From contig JAABTD010000028.1 of the NCBI GenBank assembly GCA_011390065.1, positions 1 through 33,717 on the forward strand: a stretch of 33,717 bases of DNA, read 5' to 3'. Every line of letters starts with the position of its first letter. The stretch's first letter is position 1. Shown piece by piece: positions 3,810 to 32,946 of this stretch. Below the pieces are notes generated by a model. That model saw nothing but the letters and a program-made list of their open reading frames with translations, made no database searches and was not told where the DNA came from. A program made the position numbers and the translations under genes. The stretch is from Desulfobacteraceae bacterium. GTDB lineage: Bacteria; Desulfobacterota; Desulfobacteria; Desulfobacterales; JAABSP01.

Positions 3810-6257
<2,448 letters not shown>

Positions 6258-6343
6258 GTTAAAATAACCCCGATGCGGTTAAATGGGAAAACAATACTTG
6301 CACAAAATATGGATGTTCGGATGTACCAGCGGGGAGGGGGATG

Positions 6344-6372
6344 CCGGTCGACGACGGATGCTCGTCGACCGG
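6344..6372 (-). terminator. Hairpin between clpX and lon
   Basis: CCGGTCGACGA (6344-6354) and its reverse complement (6362-6372) form an 11-bp perfect stem with a 7-base loop, 17 bases after the clpX stop on the minus strand. No T run follows, so it may attenuate or protect the clpX 3' end instead of ending transcription fully. Confidence 0.5.
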
Positions 6373-6389
6373 CCGTGTCGGTTCAGCGG

Positions 6390-7634
6390 TCAGGCCTGCT
6401 TCTTGGTCTGCTCGTACAACAGGATCGGGTCTTCATTGTGAAGAACGACATCCTCCCCGATCACGCATTCCTTCACGTTTTCGGTGGAGGGAATGTCGTA
6501 CATGATGTCGAGCATGCACTTTTCCATAATGGCCCGAAGCCCCCGGGCCCCGGATTTTCGTTTCAGCGCCTCGGAGGCCACGGCCGCAAGGGCGCTGTCG
6601 GTCATGCGAAGATTGACGCCTTCGATCTCGAACAACTTCTGGAATTGCTTGATCAAAGCGTTTTTCGGCTCTGTGAGGATCCGGACCAGGGCTTCCTGGT
6701 CGAGTTCATGGAGCGTGGCGATCACCGGCAGACGACCCAGGAACTCGGGGATCAGCCCATATTTAATCAGGTCTTCGGGCTGGATCTGTTTGAGGGTTTC
6801 GCCGATGTTCTTCTCTTCCATCTTGACCAGCTTCGCCCCGAAGCCCATGGATTTCTGGGCGATGCGGCGCTGGATGACTTTTTCCAGACCGTTGAAGGTG
6901 CCGCCGCAGATGAACAGGATGTTGGAGGTGTCCACCTTGACGAAATCCTGTTGGGGATGTTTGCGCCCCCCCTTGGGCGGCACGCTGGCCGTGGTGCCTT
7001 CGATGATCTTGAGCAGGGCCTGCTGGACGCCCTCGCCCGATACGTCCCGGGTGATGGAGGGGTTGTCTGATTTGCTGGCGATTTTGTCGATCTCGTCGAT
7101 GTAGACGATGCCGCGTTTGGCCCGCTCCACGTCGTAGTCGGCGTTCTGGAGCAGCGAGAGGATGATGTTTTCCACATCTTCCCCCACATAGCCGGCCTCG
7201 GTCAGGCTGGTGGCGTCGGCGATGGTGAAGGGGACGTTGAGAAACCGGGCCAGGGTCTGGGCCAGAAGGGTCTTGCCCGACCCGGTGGGCCCGATGAGCA
7301 TGATGTTGCTCTTCTGGATCTCCACGTCGTCGGTCTTCACCGCAGATCCCAGCCGCTTGTAGTGATTGTAAACCGCTACCGACAGCACCTTTTTGGCGGC
7401 GTCCTGCTGAATGACGTAATCATCCAGAGAGCATTTGATGTCTTTGGGCAGCGGGGAGCTTTCCGACTCGCGGACGTCTTTTTCGCTTTCTTCCTCGATA
7501 ATCTCGCTGCAAAGCTGGATGCATTCATCGCAGATATAGACCGCGGGGCCTGCGATCAGTTTTTTAACCTCTTTCTGATTTTTTCCGCAGAAGGAACAGA
7601 ACAGATTCTCGTTGTCGTTGCGCTTTTTACTCAT
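6390..7634 (-). CDS. clpX: ClpX, ATPase subunit of the ClpXP protease
   Basis: This 414-residue AAA+ unfoldase has an N-terminal C4 zinc-binding domain (C13, C16, C35 and C38 in LFCSFCG and YICDEC), Walker A GPTGSGKT (115-122), Walker B with [10 protein letters not shown], and the conserved sensor/arginine regions including the [11 protein letters not shown] and PEFLGRLPV stretches. It recognises tagged substrates, unfolds them and feeds ClpP. Its ATG overlaps the clpP stop by 4 bases (ATGA), so the two are translationally coupled. Length and motifs are normal for the family. Confidence 0.97.
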
Positions 7635-8263
7635 TTGTCGCTTCCTCCGTCGGGTTCCTCGATCTGATCAAGATCATCGCGATTGATGATCACATGGTCG
7701 ATCAGCCCGTATTCTTGTGCCTCTTTGCCTGACATGAAGAAGTCGCGATCGGTGTCTTTCTCGACACGCTCGATGTCTTTTCCGGTATGATAGGACAGGA
7801 TCTGGTTCAGGGTGTCGCGCATGCGCAGGATCTCTTTGGCTTGGATGGCGATGTCTGACGCCTGGCCCTGGGACCCGCCCAGGGGCTGGTGAATCATGAT
7901 CCGGGCGTTGGGCAGGGCGTACCGCTTCCCCCGGGCCCCGGCGCCCAGGAGCAACGCCCCCATGCTGGCGGCCTGTCCGATGCAGACCGTGGCGATATCG
8001 GGCTTGATGTACTGCATGGTGTCGTATACCGCCAGTCCGGCGGTCACGATCCCGCCCGGCGAGTTGACGTAAAAATTGATGTCTTTCTCGGGGTCTTCCG
8101 ATTCCAGGAACAACAGTTGGGCGATCAGCAGGTTCGCGATCTCGTCCGTGACGGTGGATCCCAGAAAGATGATCCGGTCTTTGAGCAGCCGGGAGTAGAT
8201 GTCATAGGCCCGCTCGCCTCTGCTGCTTTGTTCGATGACCATTGGAATTAATGGCACAGGCAA
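7631..8263 (-). CDS. clpP: ClpP, proteolytic subunit of the ClpXP protease
   Basis: This 210-residue serine peptidase has the catalytic triad S100 (GQAASMG), H125 (MIHQPLGG) and D174 (DRDFFM). The N-terminus begins [27 protein letters not shown], the usual ClpP start with a very short propeptide. The protein forms the tetradecameric chamber of ClpXP. It lies 66 bases downstream of the trigger factor gene and overlaps clpX by 4 bases, a standard arrangement. No anomalies are seen. Confidence 0.97.
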
Positions 8264-8329
8264 ACTCCTTTTATGGCATTGGACCGCGTCTTTCCATAAT
8301 CCGGTGAGACGCGGCGCGTGGGTTGCAAC

Positions 8330-9673
8330 TTATTCGACGGGACTTTCCGCTTCCGCCGCCCGGGCGTCCGCTTCCGGTTCCGCTTCGACTTCTTCAACGT
8401 CGCTGTTTTCTATGATAAGATCAATCGCCTTTTTTTCAAGCAGGGTGTGTTTCAGGAAGGACAGCTTTTCCTGATTCTGCGTGTAGTGCTCCCGGACCGC
8501 GTCCACTGTGGCGCCGGCGGATTGGGCGATGGATTGAAAGGGTTCCTGCAATTCTTCATCGGGCAACTCGAGGTTCATCTGTTCGATGAGCTTGGAAAGG
8601 ATCAGGTGGCGGCGAACCTGCTGCACCGCCGTTTCACGATGGTCCTCGGCGATTTTTTCAGGGGTGATCCCGAGGCTTTCCATGGTGATGTTGTTGGACT
8701 CGAACTGCCGGCGAAAATCTTCGATAATGGCGTTGGTTTCCGATTCAACCAATGTATCGGGCACTTCGAAATCGGTTTGTTCCAGCAGGGCGGAAAAGAC
8801 CTGTTCGCTGATTTCCTGCTCCGAGCGCTTGTCGTACCCCTGCTTCAGGTTGGCCCGAATGGCGTCCCTGAGAGCGTCAAGGTTTGCGAAAGCACCGAAA
8901 TTTTTAGCCAGTTCATCATCGATGGGGGGCAGGACCTCCTCCCGGATCTCTTTGATGGTGATCCTGAAGTCGACCGTCTGGCCGGCCAGGTTCGCGTTGC
9001 CGTAATCTCCGGGAAAGGCGACCTGGACGTCCACCGTCTCTCCGGGCATTTTGCCGGGCAGGGCCTCGTCGATCTCCGGGGCGATGGCGGCCCGGCCGAT
9101 TTCCAGAGTGTGGTTTTCTGAAGACCCGATCGCCTCGAAGGGGGCGCCCTCCTGGGTCGCTTCATAGTCGACCACCACGAAGTCGCCCTTCTGCACAGGA
9201 CGCTCTTCGGTCACGGGTTTGTGCTCCGACACCTTCTTCTGGAGCATCCGCAGCTGGGCGTCGATCTCTTCCTCGCCGACCGGATAGATCGACTTTTTCA
9301 GCTTCAAGCCGGAATAATCGATGTCGGGGATGTCGGGTGCGATTTCCACGGTGGCGTCGTACCGGAAGGGAACGGCTTCGTCCAGTTCGAACGGCGCGAT
9401 GTCCGGCGCGCCCACCATCCGGAGTTCGTGTTCGCGGATGGCGTCAAAGAGGGTGGTCTGGATCAGGTTCTGGGAGACGTCCGCATCCACATCGCTTTTA
9501 TAAAGCCGTTTGAGCACGTTCCGAGGCACTTTTCCGGGTCGAAACCCTTTCACCTTGACTTTTTTGCTCAAGTCGCGATAGGCCTCGTCCATCTTCTGCT
9601 TCACCTCTTCCTGGGGCACTTCCACGTGAAGCACTTTTTTGACGCTGCTGAGATCCTCTAAACGAACCGGCAT
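8330..9673 (-). CDS. tig: Trigger factor, ribosome-associated chaperone
   Basis: The 447-residue protein has the N-terminal ribosome-binding domain with the signature GFRPGKVP, a central FKBP-type peptidyl-prolyl isomerase domain (around KGDFVVVDYEA) and a long helical C-terminal domain that cradles nascent chains. The end is acidic and alanine-rich (EVEAEPEADARAAEAES). The ATG at 9673 is chosen because AAAGGAAG lies just upstream and trigger factors start MPVxxEDLSSVKK; an in-frame upstream ATG at 9727 lies inside a hairpin and is unlikely. It is the first protein gene of the tig-clpP-clpX-lon block and lies downstream of tRNA-Leu. Confidence 0.95.
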   Translation of the reverse strand: MPVRLEDLSSVKKVLHVEVPQEEVKQKMDEAYRDLSKKVKVKGFRPGKVPRNVLKRLYKSDVDADVSQNLIQTTLFDAIREHELRMVGAPDIAPFELDEAVPFRYDATVEIAPDIPDIDYSGLKLKKSIYPVGEEEIDAQLRMLQKKVSEHKPVTEERPVQKGDFVVVDYEATQEGAPFEAIGSSENHTLEIGRAAIAPEIDEALPGKMPGETVDVQVAFPGDYGNANLAGQTVDFRITIKEIREEVLPPIDDELAKNFGAFANLDALRDAIRANLKQGYDKRSEQEISEQVFSALLEQTDFEVPDTLVESETNAIIEDFRRQFESNNITMESLGITPEKIAEDHRETAVQQVRRHLILSKLIEQMNLELPDEELQEPFQSIAQSAGATVDAVREHYTQNQEKLSFLKHTLLEKKAIDLIIENSDVEEVEAEPEADARAAEAESPVE

Positions 9674-9697
9674 AATCTTCCTTTCTACATAATCAAA

Positions 9698-9726
9698 TGC
9701 CTGAAGGCTCGATGCGTCTTCAGGCA
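9698..9726 (-). terminator. Hairpin between tRNA-Leu and tig
   Basis: TGCCTGAAG and CTTCAGGCA form a perfect 9-bp stem with an 11-base loop; on the minus strand it is followed by ATTTGATTAT. It lies 93 bases after tRNA-Leu and 25 bases before tig. It may end part of the tRNA transcript or mark processing between the tRNA and the tig mRNA. Confidence 0.5.
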
Positions 9727-9818
9727 CTGTCGCGCGTTAATTAATATTATAGACTGAATGTCAGGTTTATGCAATGTTCGACCCTGTTTAGACAATCGGG
9801 CGTCCCAAACAGGCTCGC

Positions 9819-22542: not shown

Positions 22543-24657
22543 TTATCGCTCCAGCGGCAACATGTCTTCCACATGGAGGAAGTTCCAGAAAACGTACCCG
22601 CGGGTAACCGGAAACTGGGCGTAATCCGTGTTCGGATTGACGATCTCTTCCTGACCACGGATGGTTTCAATCGCCCACTCCGACGCTTCCTGGTGGACGC
22701 CGCTGTCGAGCATCTCTTGCAAAGTAATCGGGGGCGACTGTAGAAAGCCGTGCACGAGCAGTGATGAAAAATTCTGGAAATAGCTCGTCTGATTCACGAT
22801 CGTTTGGCATACGCCGTCTTCATCCTCTCCTTTGAACACCTGCTTCAGGGGAATGTTCACCGGATTCTGGGCTGAGCCGGGATTGCTGACGGCAAAAGCG
22901 ACGCCGTCGTAGGTTCCGTCGAAGGATAAAAGAACGGATCCGCCGGTGGGAGGACCATAAGTCAAGCTTTGTTCACATTCCTCCTCCTCGTTTTCATATT
23001 TGGCCGCCGGAAACTGGAGCCGGACCTGGTCCTCCCCGGTCAGCTTGAGGGTGTTCACATCCGTGGTCATCCGGACATCGTGAAATTCCCACCAGCCGTT
23101 CGCCCCGGACTGAAGCGTCATCTCCGGCAGGTTATGCACCGCATCGTCCACGATCAGCCAGTATTTGATGTTCCCGACCCATACGTCGCAGTCGCCCACA
23201 TTTTTTTTCACCTTTTCCATCAGTTCATTCGCCTTTCCATCGTTGCCCAGCAGCATGTTCTGCTGCGCCACGTGGAGCATCTCCCTGAGTCGCCCGCAAT
23301 CCCCTTCGGCCAGCAGTTCATCCGCCATTTTCCCGGCGACATCCGCCGCCTCACCGATCAGGTCCGATGCGAGAGCGTCGTTTCCCAGGGCCTGAGCCTG
23401 TGCAGCGACCCCCAACAGGGCGGCTTTTCCCTTCTCGTTCTGGTTTCCGGCGGCGATATCCCGGGCTGCATTGGCGAGGTCGTTCAGCGCGTTCTGCAGC
23501 GCCGGATCATTCAGATTCGGTTCAAAATCCGGATCATTCGTCATCTGGTCCTGCCAATCGGTCAGGATCGACGTGAGATCCATCCTGGCAGCCATGTAGC
23601 CGCTCTGGGATCGCGCCAGGCGGCCTGATGTCCGCCTTTGGAGGTAATCCGGTTCTATAGCGTCGAACACGCCGTAAATGGATGAAAGGGACGTCGCCCG
23701 ACACTGAAAATGGAATGAGCCGTCGCGGCTGCAACCGTTTTCGATCACTTCCCATCGGCCGTCGGCATGGCTGAAAACAGCGAGTTGGGGGCTATCGGAA
23801 AGGCGACCGTTGTCCTGGATCCGGACGGCGATCTCCTTCCCCGCAACCAGTTGCGCCCCGCTGCCGTCCGCTCCTTGCGCGCCGATGGAAAACGCCATCT
23901 GCAAATTGAGATCCGCTCCGGAACTCAACGCCTCGAACACGGGTTGGACGTGAATCGGATCGATCTCGGTCAGGCTCGCCACCACCGGCGTTTCGGCGAA
24001 CAGGGCCGCATCGGCGACAGCCTCGTAAACAGGGGCGTCCGGCCTTCCCAGGTAGAGGCGCTGCGATTCCCCCTGCCGGATAAGCGCCATATCTCCGAAA
24101 GGCGTCAACTCGACGCGATAAAACGATGTTCCCGACATTGCCGATGACCGGAGAAAAGGATACAATGTTTCCAACGCAGCGGTGTATCCCGGTACATACC
24201 CCGAGGCCGACGCCTTTACCCAACCGCTCGGCGAAACATCGAATCGCCCTGTGGCGACGCCGTTCGCATCGGTCAGTTCGCCGCCGCCCACCCGGGCATT
24301 GAGAACAGGCTCTCCGGAAATGTCCACGACATGGGCCATGGCGTCGATGTTCAACGCATCGTTCTCACCGGCGATGAACCGCAGCGCATAGACGACCTCC
24401 GCCAATCCCATCCTGTCGTCCCCGTTCACATCGTTTCCGGTCAGGGACCAGTCGGGGGGAGCCGCCGACGGCGCCATCCCCGCTGTTACCTGCAAACCAA
24501 GCACCACGTCGGACAGATCGACGCCGCCGTCGTTATTCAAATCCCCTTCGGCGGCCATGGACAGGGCCGGGATGCCTGAAAGCGCCGTTGCGAAGAGAAG
24601 ACAGCATCCAGTGCAAAGCAATCGCTTAAAAAAGGTGTTTCTACAAATGGTTTTCAT
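22543..24657 (-). CDS. Large secreted dockerin-domain protein
   Basis: This 704-residue protein has a signal peptide (MKTICRNTFFKRLLCTGCC, then hydrophobic to about residue 35) directly followed by a type I dockerin-like domain with two calcium loops (GDLNNDGGVDLSDVVLGLQ and GNDVNGDDRMGLAEVVYALR). After it comes a carboxypeptidase-regulatory-like beta segment (VVDISGEPVLNARVGGG), a long mixed region, and an alanine-rich helical repeat zone around residues 390-480. Dockerins bind calcium and cohesins; free-standing ones are also used for surface display. No cohesin gene is in view. AGAGGTG precedes the ATG. Function of the main body is unknown. Confidence 0.8.
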   Translation of the reverse strand: MKTICRNTFFKRLLCTGCCLLFATALSGIPALSMAAEGDLNNDGGVDLSDVVLGLQVTAGMAPSAAPPDWSLTGNDVNGDDRMGLAEVVYALRFIAGENDALNIDAMAHVVDISGEPVLNARVGGGELTDANGVATGRFDVSPSGWVKASASGYVPGYTAALETLYPFLRSSAMSGTSFYRVELTPFGDMALIRQGESQRLYLGRPDAPVYEAVADAALFAETPVVASLTEIDPIHVQPVFEALSSGADLNLQMAFSIGAQGADGSGAQLVAGKEIAVRIQDNGRLSDSPQLAVFSHADGRWEVIENGCSRDGSFHFQCRATSLSSIYGVFDAIEPDYLQRRTSGRLARSQSGYMAARMDLTSILTDWQDQMTNDPDFEPNLNDPALQNALNDLANAARDIAAGNQNEKGKAALLGVAAQAQALGNDALASDLIGEAADVAGKMADELLAEGDCGRLREMLHVAQQNMLLGNDGKANELMEKVKKNVGDCDVWVGNIKYWLIVDDAVHNLPEMTLQSGANGWWEFHDVRMTTDVNTLKLTGEDQVRLQFPAAKYENEEEECEQSLTYGPPTGGSVLLSFDGTYDGVAFAVSNPGSAQNPVNIPLKQVFKGEDEDGVCQTIVNQTSYFQNFSSLLVHGFLQSPPITLQEMLDSGVHQEASEWAIETIRGQEEIVNPNTDYAQFPVTRGYVFWNFLHVEDMLPLER

Positions 24658-24978: not shown

Positions 24979-25007
24979 TTGACTTCCGCCGGTTAAGCGG
25001 TTATATT
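24979..25007 (+). promoter_or_regulatory. Sigma-70-type promoter of the DEAD-box helicase gene
   Basis: -35 TTGACT (24979-24984), 17-base spacer, -10 TATATT (25002-25007). The predicted start near 25014 gives a leader of about 98 bases. Confidence 0.7.
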
Positions 25008-25024
25008 TCCTTCTGATTTACCGT

Positions 25025-25085
25025 AGCTCCAGGTTTTAACGACAGAAATCATCGTAAGCCCCGGAATGCCTCCGGAGCTTTTTTT
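25025..25085 (+). promoter_or_regulatory. Leader attenuator: terminator with competing antiterminator
   Basis: A terminator hairpin (25056-25065 with 25071-25080, one mismatch, 5-base loop) is followed by a run of seven Ts (25079-25085). It lies 26 bases before the helicase ATG and after its promoter, so it would end transcription before the gene. AGCTCCAGG (25025-25033) can pair with GGAGCT and CCT of the terminator (25069-25079, two-base bulge) and would break the hairpin. This gives two mutually exclusive structures, as in attenuators. A released ~70-nt small RNA is also possible. Confidence 0.55.
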
Positions 25086-25111
25086 ATGGTCTCAACAGAA
25101 AGAAGAACTGA

Positions 25112-26350
25112 ATGACATTTGAGAATTTTTCGTTTCACCCCGCCGTCTCAGCCGGCATTGCGGCAGCGGGTTTCACCCGTCCCACCCCCATCCAGACCGA
25201 AGCCATTCCGCCGGTTATGAAAGGCAGCGACGTCATGGGCCTGGCCCAGACCGGCACCGGCAAAACCGCCGTATTTGCTCTGCCCATTCTGAATCGACTC
25301 ATGGACGGAAAGCGCGGTCATGTCCGCGCCCTGGTCATCGCCCCCACCCGGGAGCTGGCCGAACAGATCAATGACGACATCCGAAAGCTGGGAAAACAAA
25401 CCCGCCTGCGGAGCATGACCATCTATGGCGGCGTGGGCATCAATCCCCAGAAAGAAAAGCTGAAACGCGGCGTGGAGATCGTGGTCGCCTGCCCCGGACG
25501 TCTCCTGGACCATCTCGGCCAGGGAACCGTGGATCTGTCTCATCTGGAAGTGCTGGTTCTCGATGAAGCGGATCAGATGTTCGACATGGGGTTTTTCCCC
25601 GACATCCGGAGAATCATCCGTCAGGTCCCCAAACAGCGTCAGACCCTGCTCTTTTCCGCCACCATGCCCGATCAGATCCGGCATCTGGCCAGCGAAGTGC
25701 TGAACAAACCGATCACCGTTCAGATGGGCGCAAGCGCGCCGGCCGAGACCGTCCGTCATGCCCTTTACCCGGTGGCCCCGACCCTGAAAACGCCGCTGCT
25801 CATGGAATTGCTGAGCGATATCGACACCGGATCGGTGCTGGTGTTCACCAAGACCAAACATCGGGCCAAGCGCGTCGGCGACCAACTGGCCAAGGCCGGC
25901 CACTCCTCGACATCGCTCCAGGGAAATCTTTCCCAGGGAAAACGTCAGGCGGCCCTCAACGGCTTCCGCAACGGCACCTACCGGATTCTGGTGGCCACCG
26001 ACATCGCGGCCCGGGGCATCGACGTGTCGCAGATATCGCATGTCATCAATTACGATATGCCGTCCACCCCCGAAGCCTACATCCACCGCATCGGTCGGAC
26101 CGGCCGGGCCTCCCAAACCGGAGAAGCCTTCACCCTGCTCACCGCATCCGACATCAGCATGGCCCACGCCATCGACCGGATTCTCGGAGAGCGCGTCGAA
26201 CGCCGGACGCTCACGGACTTTGACTACGGTCCCCAGGGGTCGCCGGATGTCAAACCGAACCGGAAGCCGGCATCCCCCACCCGAAACGCCAGGCCCGCCA
26301 AGCGGAGACGGGATTTCAACGGCCGGATGATGCCTGCCGCCGCCAGATAA
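25112..26350 (+). CDS. rhlE: DEAD-box RNA helicase, RhlE-like
   Basis: This 412-residue ATP-dependent RNA helicase has the Q motif (FTRPTPIQTEAIP), Walker A AQTGTGKT, PTRELAEQI, DEAD with DEADQMFDMGF, SAT, and the motif VI segment HRIGRTGRA. A short basic tail (KPASPTRNARPAKRRRDFNG) follows the two RecA domains, as in RhlE-type helicases that act in ribosome assembly and RNA turnover. It has its own promoter and a leader with a terminator, so expression is likely conditional, for example on cold or growth, though the signal is unknown. Its 3' end is convergent with the lhr-type gene. Confidence 0.93.
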   Translation: MTFENFSFHPAVSAGIAAAGFTRPTPIQTEAIPPVMKGSDVMGLAQTGTGKTAVFALPILNRLMDGKRGHVRALVIAPTRELAEQINDDIRKLGKQTRLRSMTIYGGVGINPQKEKLKRGVEIVVACPGRLLDHLGQGTVDLSHLEVLVLDEADQMFDMGFFPDIRRIIRQVPKQRQTLLFSATMPDQIRHLASEVLNKPITVQMGASAPAETVRHALYPVAPTLKTPLLMELLSDIDTGSVLVFTKTKHRAKRVGDQLAKAGHSSTSLQGNLSQGKRQAALNGFRNGTYRILVATDIAARGIDVSQISHVINYDMPSTPEAYIHRIGRTGRASQTGEAFTLLTASDISMAHAIDRILGERVERRTLTDFDYGPQGSPDVKPNRKPASPTRNARPAKRRRDFNGRMMPAAAR

Positions 26351-31333: not shown

Positions 31334-31383
31334 TGATCATCTTCGATGATGTGTTATATATTACCCTTAATTGAAATTAAGGA
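31334..31383 (+). promoter_or_regulatory. Promoter and operator of the hipBA module 2
   Basis: TTGATC (31334-31339) and TATATA or TATATT (31356-31363) form a promoter-like pair in an AT-rich stretch. The palindrome CCTTAATT-GA-AATTAAGG (31366-31383) overlaps the start of the transcript and the ribosome binding site AAGGAG, a natural operator for the HTH protein. A second small palindrome TCATC-TTC-GATGA lies between -35 and -10. Confidence 0.55.
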
Positions 31384-31390
31384 GATATTT

Positions 31391-31723
31391 ATGACCCTAA
31401 AAATGGATATTCCACCCGAAGTCACAACCGCCATCGCCCGGTTGGGCGACCACATCCGGATCGCCCGGAAACGACGGGCGATCTCAATGGCGGAGATGGC
31501 GTCCCGGATGTTCGTCACCCGAAAAACCCTGTCGCGCCTGGAAAACGGAGAGCCGGGGGTGTCCCTCGGGGTATTCGCCATGGCGCTCTGGGTGCTCGGG
31601 TTGGACCGGGAGCTGCTGGACGTGGCGCTGCCCGAAAAAGACCGGGCCGGAATCTTTCTGGAACGCCGGCGCCTGCCCCAGCGCATTCGGGAAAAAACCG
31701 ATGCGGATGACCTGGATTTCTGA
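31391..31723 (+). CDS. hipB: HipB-like XRE antitoxin/repressor (module 2)
   Basis: This 110-residue XRE-type protein has its helix-turn-helix at LGDHIRIARKRRAISMAEMASRMFV, TRKTLSRLENGEPGVS (about residues 19-60), followed by LGVFAMALWVLGLDRELLD. It is the typical HipB partner that binds the operator and inhibits HipA. The ATG at 31391 is chosen for the AAGGAG 7 bases upstream; an in-frame ATG at 31346 lies before the promoter elements. It ends 2 bases before hipA, so translation is coupled. Order is hipB then hipA, the classical one, opposite to module 1. Confidence 0.85.
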   Translation: MTLKMDIPPEVTTAIARLGDHIRIARKRRAISMAEMASRMFVTRKTLSRLENGEPGVSLGVFAMALWVLGLDRELLDVALPEKDRAGIFLERRRLPQRIREKTDADDLDF

Positions 31724-31725
31724 TC

Positions 31726-32946
31726 ATGGCCGAACGACAAGCCACTGTTTTCATTTATCTGCCGGGAGAGACCATCGCGGTCCCGGCCGGGCGGTTTTAC
31801 CATGATCCGGATGCCGGCGTCGGACGGTTCGCCTACGGCCGAAGATACGTCGAACGGCCCAATGCGCTTGCGGTGGATCCCGTGACGCTGCCGCTGGGCC
31901 CGCCCCCGCGGGAGACCACGGTCAATGGCGGAATCTATGGCGCCTTTCGGGACTCGGCCCCGGACCACTGGGGGCGTCTGGTCATCGCCATGGAGATGGG
32001 CGCGCCGCCGGAGGCCGTTTCCGAGATGGATTGTCTCCTGGCGGCCAGCGCGGCCCGGACCGGGAATCTCGATTTCAGAGTGAACCCGGAAGATCCGGAA
32101 CCGGGTCTTCATCCGCCGCAATTCAACGATCTTGTGGATGTCATGGAGGCCGCGCGCCGAATCGAATCGGATGAGCGGGTCGAGCCCCACCTGTTCCAGT
32201 TGCTCCGGCAGGGGAGCAGCATGGGCGGGGCCCGTCCCAAATGCACGGTGGAATGGGGAGACGGCCTCTGGATCGCCAAATTTCCGGCCAAAGGGGACCG
32301 CCTGAACATCCCCCGCATCGAGCATGCGACGATGACGCTCGCCGGCCGGTGCGGCATTCGGATACCGGAAGTCCGGTTGATTCCCATGAACGGGACGGAC
32401 ATCTTCCTGGTCCGGCGGTTTGATCGTGAAAAACGCGGGGGCGGGTGGTCCCGCGTGGGGTTCCTCAGCGCGCTGTCCCTGATGCAGTGGGACGAACGGG
32501 ACCGACCGCGGTGGGACTACCCTGCTTTGGCGGACATCATGCGGCGGCACGCTCGCGCCGAAGACATCCGGGAATTATTCCGCCGGATGGTCTTCAACAT
32601 CCTGGTGCGCAATACGGACGACCATCCGCGCAACCACGGTTTTCTGATGGACGGCCGAAGTCTGTCGCTTTCACCGGCCTACGATATCGTCCCCACGCCG
32701 GCGCGGGCCGGGGTGGGAACCGATTTTCATCTCGCCATGTCGGTGGGGGAAGCGGGCCGAACCGCCACAGTGAAAAACGCTTTGAGTCGCTCCGCCCGGT
32801 TCGGCCTGACCCATGAAGCGGCGGTCCGCGAAGTGGAAAGCATAAAGGACATCGCGGTCCGGTGGCGGGAACATTTCGAAAGCTGCGGCGTTTCTTCCCG
32901 GGATCGGGACCTGCTGGCGCCGTCGTTCCAGCGATGCGATTCGTGA
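31726..32946 (+). CDS. hipA: HipA-family serine/threonine kinase toxin (module 2)
   Basis: This 406-residue HipA-like kinase has the glycine-rich loop SSMGGARPK (164-172), the ATP lysine in WIAKFPAKG (K185), the catalytic loop NTDDHPRNH (296-304, D298 and N303) and the metal aspartate in AYDIVPT (D320). All kinase residues are present, so it should be active. It follows hipB by 2 bases. It shares only these motifs with the HipA at 900-2195 (different N-terminal sequence), so it is a distinct lineage. Its 3' end abuts a decayed metallopeptidase gene on the opposite strand. Confidence 0.9.
   Translation: MAERQATVFIYLPGETIAVPAGRFYHDPDAGVGRFAYGRRYVERPNALAVDPVTLPLGPPPRETTVNGGIYGAFRDSAPDHWGRLVIAMEMGAPPEAVSEMDCLLAASAARTGNLDFRVNPEDPEPGLHPPQFNDLVDVMEAARRIESDERVEPHLFQLLRQGSSMGGARPKCTVEWGDGLWIAKFPAKGDRLNIPRIEHATMTLAGRCGIRIPEVRLIPMNGTDIFLVRRFDREKRGGGWSRVGFLSALSLMQWDERDRPRWDYPALADIMRRHARAEDIRELFRRMVFNILVRNTDDHPRNHGFLMDGRSLSLSPAYDIVPTPARAGVGTDFHLAMSVGEAGRTATVKNALSRSARFGLTHEAAVREVESIKDIAVRWREHFESCGVSSRDRDLLAPSFQRCDS

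Follow-up and report, generated by a model that had tools for sequence, protein, structure and literature searches.

The window analyzed here, a stretch of 33,717 nucleotides from a Desulfobacteraceae bacterium (contig JAABTD010000028.1), carries on its plus strand a gene for a DEAD-box RNA helicase that is preceded by a short leader. The elements of the locus are as follows.

24979-25007, plus strand: sigma70-like promoter, TTGACT-17 nt-TATATT, with a predicted RNA start at about 25013-25015
25025-25033, plus strand: strand 1, the nine bases AGCTCCAGG, proposed as the antiterminator strand on conservation and pairing
25027-25033, plus strand: CTCCAGG within strand 1, the window counterpart of a conserved UUCCNGG
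25039-25055, plus strand: inner hairpin P2, ACGA (25039-25042) with TCGT (25052-25055)
25056-25085, plus strand: T-tailed terminator, AAGCCCCGGA / TCCGGAGCTT, then seven T
25056-25066, plus strand: strand 2, the terminator 5' side AAGCCCCGGAA, the partner common to strands 1 and 3
25071-25080, plus strand: strand 3, the terminator 3' side TCCGGAGCTT
25079-25085, plus strand: U-tract of the intrinsic terminator
25086-25111, plus strand: post-terminator segment with a Shine-Dalgarno-like AGAAAGAAGAA at 25097-25107, the place of strand 4 in relatives
25112-26350, plus strand: DEAD-box RNA helicase with an RhlE/CshA-like core, 412 amino acids, start ATG at 25112

A domain scan found both the DEAD and the Helicase_C domains in the helicase. 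The protein scored under the cut-offs of all 19 NCBIfam models listed, with 403.7 bits against a cut-off of 743 for the RhlE equivalog and 403.8 bits against 646 for the CshA model. The long frame upstream (22543-24657) lies on the minus strand and the helicase gene points away from it; for that reason, the terminator was ruled out as belonging to this neighbor. Elsewhere in the window, a helix-turn-helix frame is followed by a HipA-like frame at 31346-32943 (HTH_31, HipA_C), a second HipA-like frame lies away from that pair at 900-2192, and consecutive frames for trigger factor, ClpP, ClpX, and Lon occupy 3813-9727 of the minus strand, with tRNA genes on the flanks.

The leader DNA has a single match within its own genome. 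Tested as a single sequence, it stayed within chance, with a fold z-score of -0.20, one terminator found against 0.6 in shuffles, and one promoter against 0.4. Because the single sequence did not go beyond chance, we accepted the leader as real on comparative evidence. A helicase search of 389 genomes of the window's class gave strong matches (E ≤ 1e-110) in at least 181, and for 110 of the better matches (30 loci and a further 80 that were fetched) we read the DNA upstream. The T-tailed terminator that the sequence-only reading had placed in the leader recurs as a block in 72 of these 110 regions at a score of at least 14 (4 of the 72 being degenerate) and in 74 at a score of at least 10. Alignment A1 took 62 of the 72 leaders; L093, L030, L024, L022, L023, L050, L040, L034, L038, and L097 were left out as near-duplicates, far from the gene, degenerate, or with strand 1 unplaced. 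Alignment A2, made for model R1, holds 57 leaders, 13 of the 72 and then two duplicates having been removed. A1, A2, and R1 were all built from leaders picked by the terminator block and are thus biased toward canonical leaders. Alignment A3 comprises 99 leaders, four of them before non-helicase genes. By inspection, a diverged group of helicase leaders (L034, L038, L040, L058, L073, L076, L078, L092, L102, and L107; the first three are counted within the 72) retains a stretch resembling strand 1 (e.g., TTTCCAGGATACAAAC), after which the terminator is weak and either degenerate or re-compensated, as with CCCTTGGAA/TTCCAAGGG in L107. Some leaders that lack the block directly follow another gene. 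On reading, a 94-aa RRM-like frame (L080:24-308) and a 65-aa cold-shock-protein-like frame (L035:91-288) lie upstream of helicase homologs, and small RNA-binding-type genes were seen there, by eye only, at L088, L096, L104, and L113.

Model R1 matched in 90 of the 389 window-class genomes (E ≤ 0.01), with a single match in all but four; at least four of the 90 have only an unrelated terminator as their match. A phylum sample gave matches in 25 of 395 genomes (E ≤ 0.001), one of which (L246) looks unrelated. A further class, that of G665, is labeled here the Geobacter class because the G665 match shares its coordinates with that of Geobacter sp. AOG1 (locus L210); R1 matched in 66 of its 195 genomes, in 37 genera out of 68. 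In the phylum to which a MAG with the title Nitrospirae (L171) belongs, R1 matched in 5 of 198 genomes, one match (L291) not standing before a helicase; neither group had contributed sequence to R1. The weak matches L156, L162, L163, L164, and L165, which are ordinary terminators and in four cases the sole match of their genome, were rejected, as were L246, L256, L324, and L291, because no helicase gene was seen downstream and strand 1 was degenerate or absent. A second set of 75 aligned matches, mainly from the Geobacter class, includes 6 that are reverse or partial, and 67 of its 69 forward matches precede a helicase. An exact-pattern scan of 84,980 species genomes returned 55 stretches. Of these, 48 precede a DEAD-box helicase gene (counting L193, the same as L151), L201 and L217 precede other genes, and L175, L187, L202, L211, and L224 look like chance on inspection. 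Two further pattern matches fell on viral contigs. At the level of sequence, many sulfate- and iron-reducing bacteria, along with a few Nitrospirae genomes, share the leader with hardly a letter changed, in the general order promoter, UUCCNGG, AU-rich spacer, and GUAAGCCCCGGAAU..UCCGGGGC-U7. The window-class search also placed the module before non-helicase genes at four loci, and three families were found behind it:

L167/L201 (L201:291-351): release factor 3 (RF3)
L153 and L155: B12-binding radical-SAM protein
L152/L217: nitronate-monooxygenase/FabK-like protein

The sequence-only reading had proposed covarying base pairs in related leaders as a check, and this came out differently for the terminator and for the upstream strand. 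In the terminator helix, 96.7% of cells were paired across the 57 leaders of A2, with double changes in 3 pairs. The second set was 97.4% paired, with compensatory changes in 7 of 10 pairs and 18 double-change cells against 2.1 in shuffles; this covariation was counted on 75 rows, 6 of them reverse or partial, in an alignment fitted to the model and against shuffles that ignore kinship. A conserved helix with compensatory changes is joined here to a U-tract. Alifold run on A1 returned part of the terminator only and no other helix. The window terminator has one C.A mismatch and with it fails the exact terminator motif. That motif, taken without strand 1, is nearly specific to this setting: a search of 192 genomes located it at 33 places (35 rows, with two palindromic doubles), namely 28 helicase leaders, one nitronate-monooxygenase-like gene (G177), and four unrelated terminators (G019, G024, G048, and G152), all four without strand 1.

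The upstream nine-base strand of the sequence-only reading, which an absence of conservation was to have counted against, proved to be strongly conserved. The six fixed positions of UUCCNGG stand at 90 to 99 of 99 leaders (UU 95 and 97, CC 96 and 90, GG 98 and 99); the window's genus is atypical in that its strand 1 has drifted. Strand 3 is a near-copy of strand 1. The strand had been proposed to pair with the 3' side of the terminator, and six bases, AGCUCC, do match GGAGCU there, but the 5' side is the better kept partner. Strand 1 with strand 2 (UUCCNGG with CCCGGAA) was paired in 98.2% of cells in the 57 leaders of A2, against 81.3% for the 3'-side register, which we rejected as the main pairing. 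When 161 leaders were reduced to 62 distinct combinations, the strand 1-strand 2 figure was 91.8%. In its CCGGGG register, strand 1 with strand 3 was 95.6% paired and is possible as a side pairing. Covariation gives no proof of the 1:2 pairing, since no pair in A2 had changed on both sides and the 3 double-change cells of the wider set, being reached in 219 of 1000 shuffles, are not significant. Suggestive double changes are UACC/GGUA (L342, L344, and L348) and UUUC/GAAA (L323), and uncompensated broken pairs occur in L290, L312, L061, L310, the L326-type clade, and others; the window, with one C x A, is a further case, as is its sister genome. Of 100 aligned matches, 98 retain the second A of GGAA while the terminator base facing it varies, as would be expected if this A paired with strand 1. 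The candidate pairing that would exclude the terminator is complementary and conserved, its covariation not significant.

Strand 1 and GUAAGCCCCGGAAU are conserved letter for letter beyond what a terminator needs, which is typical of a binding site, and because three non-helicase gene families carry the module, the effector need not be a helicase. Both observations would suit a different trans-acting factor, whether an RNA-binding, cold-shock, or ribosomal protein or a small RNA, that binds the strand 1 / GUAAGC region and decides termination. However, no particular factor is indicated, and from class to class and phylum to phylum the module remains linked to the helicase gene; we consider such a factor unlikely.

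Between strands 1 and 2, a 4-bp inner hairpin was present in 41 of 82 distinct spacers against 19.3 expected and, by a second count, in 39 of 59 against 10.5. Its alternative pairs include ACAA/UUGU and AAGA/UCUU, and one large subfamily (e.g., UUGUAACUAAAAAUCACGU) is without it. Beyond the terminator, many relatives carry a strand 4, GGAACAC, directly after the U-tract and complementary to GUGUUCC of their strand 1; the window is without it. With Watson-Crick pairs scored 1 and G-U pairs 0.5, strand 1 and the 28 nt that follow the terminator formed helices of score 6 or more in 44 of 96 leaders, where 11.7 were expected, and of score 7 or more in 24 of 96, where 3.2 were expected; the expectations come from a shuffle control that ignores kinship. 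The alternative pairs included GUGUUCC/GGAACAC, AUGUUCC/GGAACAU, UUGUUCC/GGAACAA, and AGUUCC/GGAACU. Since strand 4 is transcribed after the termination decision and adjoins the ribosome-binding site, it may act on translation. One could go further and place the main effect after transcription, with strand 1:strand 4 pairing by the ribosome-binding site controlling translation or stability, as the excess of helices and their alternative pairs would allow. Related sequences dominate that excess, however, the pairing is weak or absent in about half of the leaders, the window among them, and the terminator would be left unexplained; this seems to us improbable as the main effect.

In 92 of 99 leaders we found a sigma70-like site that matches at 8 or more of 12 positions, whereas mononucleotide shuffles would give 17.4; the -10 element ends 15 to 20 nt before strand 1 in 75 of the 92. 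A transcription start downstream of the terminator had been named as an observation that would contradict attenuation. The promoter-like site lies upstream and in near-fixed register with strand 1, and a conserved downstream start is therefore unlikely. As far as sequence can tell, the promoter precedes the terminator and the terminator precedes the gene. No ATG, GTG, or TTG occurs in window positions 25013-25055, and a leader-peptide attenuator of the trp type was ruled out because the window has no start codon ahead of the terminator. Farther along, an 18-codon frame (25066-25122) begins with an ATG in the terminator loop and overlaps the helicase start; that ATG is possible in about a quarter of relatives only (G at that column in 26 of 100). 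Another ATG, at 25086, opens a 9-codon frame ending in the ATGA of the helicase start.

Folding models gave an order to these pairings. In RNA ending after strand 2 at 37°C, the mean probability of 1:2 pairing was 0.575, against 0.027 with strand 1 shuffled, and it exceeded 0.5 in 69 of 96 leaders. Once strand 3 emerges in the modeled nascent RNA, the terminator replaces 1:2, and at the U-tract it wins outright at equilibrium (0.98 at 37°C and 0.99 at 10°C; 97 leaders), so that read-through would require an assumed kinetic or protein effect. Along a direct path that leads from the nascent fold into the terminator, the median barrier over 96 leaders was 8.6 kcal/mol at 37°C and 10.5 kcal/mol at 10°C, compared with 3.6 and 4.4 kcal/mol with strand 1 shuffled. 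For a locked 1:2 helix, the median barriers were 9.1 (37°C) and 11.4 (10°C) kcal/mol, from which we estimate half-lives of about 0.2 to 1.7 s and about 40 to 400 s, respectively, given assumed attempt rates of 1e6 to 1e7 per s and barriers from direct-path modeling. For the window itself, the 1:2 probability was 0.64 at complete strand 2 and, at 10°C, rose from 0.23 to 0.91 as strand 3 began; the terminator probability at the U-tract was 0.77, and the barriers to the terminator, 6.3 (37°C) and 7.8 (10°C) kcal/mol, were under the leader median. Its AGCUCC:GGAGCU pairing had a probability of 0.15 at the U-tract and 0.44 in the full leader, and in these models the 3'-side pairing may matter in the window's genus after read-through.

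In the full-length leader the alternative fold is much less stable than the terminator, which would also suit a constitutive leader, acting as a fixed partial terminator that lowers expression or as an independent small RNA of about 70 nt that ends at the terminator, with the helicase expressed via leak; a promoter-terminator unit of this size does resemble a small RNA gene. Yet a plain terminator needs no conserved strand 1, loop, or exact letters, the unit stays beside the helicase gene, and strand 1 specifically raises the modeled barrier to termination. We give a constitutive leader little credence.

The conserved strands and terminator identify the leader as real, widely conserved, and, by its sequence features, attenuator-like, as the sequence-only reading had suspected of the region before the helicase gene. 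They suggest that this gene is controlled by early stopping of transcription. The reading that we favor, with confidence somewhat better than even, is a cis-acting transcription attenuator with a metastable antiterminator, in which the speed of strand exchange decides and helicase activity and cold are the likeliest input. The RNA would begin about 10 nt before strand 1, and strand 2, on emerging, would pair first with strand 1 (UUCCNGG:CCCGGAA) around the small inner hairpin. Strand 3 would then have to displace this metastable 1:2 antiterminator for the terminator to form at the U-tract. Where displacement is fast, transcription would stop before the helicase gene; where it is slow, polymerase would read through. 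The likeliest input would be how well RNA duplexes get opened in the cell: by speeding strand exchange the helicase would hold down its own synthesis, which cold, by slowing the exchange, would raise. Sequence comparison shows the terminator, the conserved strands, the promoter-like site, and their place ahead of the helicase gene; the pairing order and the barrier to the terminator are modeled, and regulated read-through, the helicase as effector, and cold as signal are inferences. Both self-regulation by the helicase and a response to cold would be plausible.

Cold might suffice without any protein effector if low temperature alone slowed the passage from 1:2 to the terminator and increased read-through. 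The rise in the median barrier and the longer half-life of the locked helix from 37 to 10°C point in this direction. Published work reports cold induction of DEAD-box helicases in other bacteria (PMC6239172, PMC8552747) and describes the cold induction of Caulobacter crescentus cspA as resulting from transcription attenuation at optimal temperature (PMC5472812). On the other hand, transcription slows in the cold too, and our calculation leaves out this slowing and the non-direct folding routes; the mean equilibrium probabilities are nearly equal at 37 and 10°C; and none of the other targets (RF3, radical-SAM, nitronate-monooxygenase-like) is an obvious cold gene. An intrinsic cold switch of this kind carries, in our estimate, a low probability.

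Our favored attenuator with a metastable antiterminator can be compared with known systems. The covariance models of Rfam release 15, among them riboswitches, T-boxes, thermometers, and protein leaders, gave no match for the window, the only hit being a chance one at E 3, and none at the gathering threshold for the relatives L210, L186 (Desulfosarcina widdelii), and L201. Classical transcription attenuators consist of a promoter, a short leader, two mutually exclusive hairpins (antiterminator and intrinsic terminator), and a U-tract before the gene. The helicase leader has a promoter-like site, a terminator, a U-tract, and a putative antiterminator to set beside these, but differs in having no leader peptide or known ligand; moreover, just about 10 nt separate its upstream strand, a near-copy of the terminator 3' strand, from the predicted RNA start. 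In cold-shock mRNA thermosensors of the Escherichia coli cspA type, leader folding is proposed to respond to cold; the helicase leader, unlike these, has no Rfam match, and its proposed decision is premature termination. Ribosomal-protein leaders of the L20 type show attenuation controlled by the gene's own product, whereas in the helicase leader, again without an Rfam match, the effector is only proposed.

In the open-licence part of PubMed Central, we found no published description of this leader or of an RNA switch able to sense helicase activity, and a survey of premature terminators (PMC2965389) makes no mention of helicase, rhlE, cold, delta, or Desulfo. The Caulobacter cspA leader resembles the control proposed here in combining cold and attenuation and differs in gene and phylum, a likeness drawn from its description in excerpts of PMC5472812. 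The same excerpts report that Caulobacter RhlE is induced in the cold, that the 186-nt 5' untranslated region (UTR) of rhlE is needed for maximal expression, probably through stability, and that loss of rhlE in a null strain goes with higher rhlE-lacZ expression, which by analogy would suit negative feedback. That 5' UTR is likewise the leader of an RhlE-type helicase gene. Within those excerpts, however, no terminator is described there, and wild-type cells showed no induction of the transcriptional fusion at 10°C, with post-transcriptional control being the authors' conclusion (PMC5472812). For its acetogenesis genes, PMC6239172 did not clearly observe attenuation that depended on temperature.

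Bacterial DEAD-box helicases are cold-induced and suspected of autoregulation. An element of 60 nt found across several classes and at least two phyla would offer a compact system, open to direct testing, in which to study strand exchange during transcription, feedback by the helicase, and the response to cold, and the helicase leader is a candidate for a new RNA family in Rfam. A bolder reading, which we hold as tentative and rather doubtful, is that the leader is a built-in meter of RNA-helicase activity. Its antiterminator would be trapped kinetically, the helicase would have to open it for its own gene to be shut off, and the device would have been preserved in the window's class, in the Geobacter class, and among Nitrospirae genomes. 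If this were true, the RF3, radical-SAM, and nitronate-monooxygenase-like genes, having occasionally recruited the module, would join a helicase-activity regulon.
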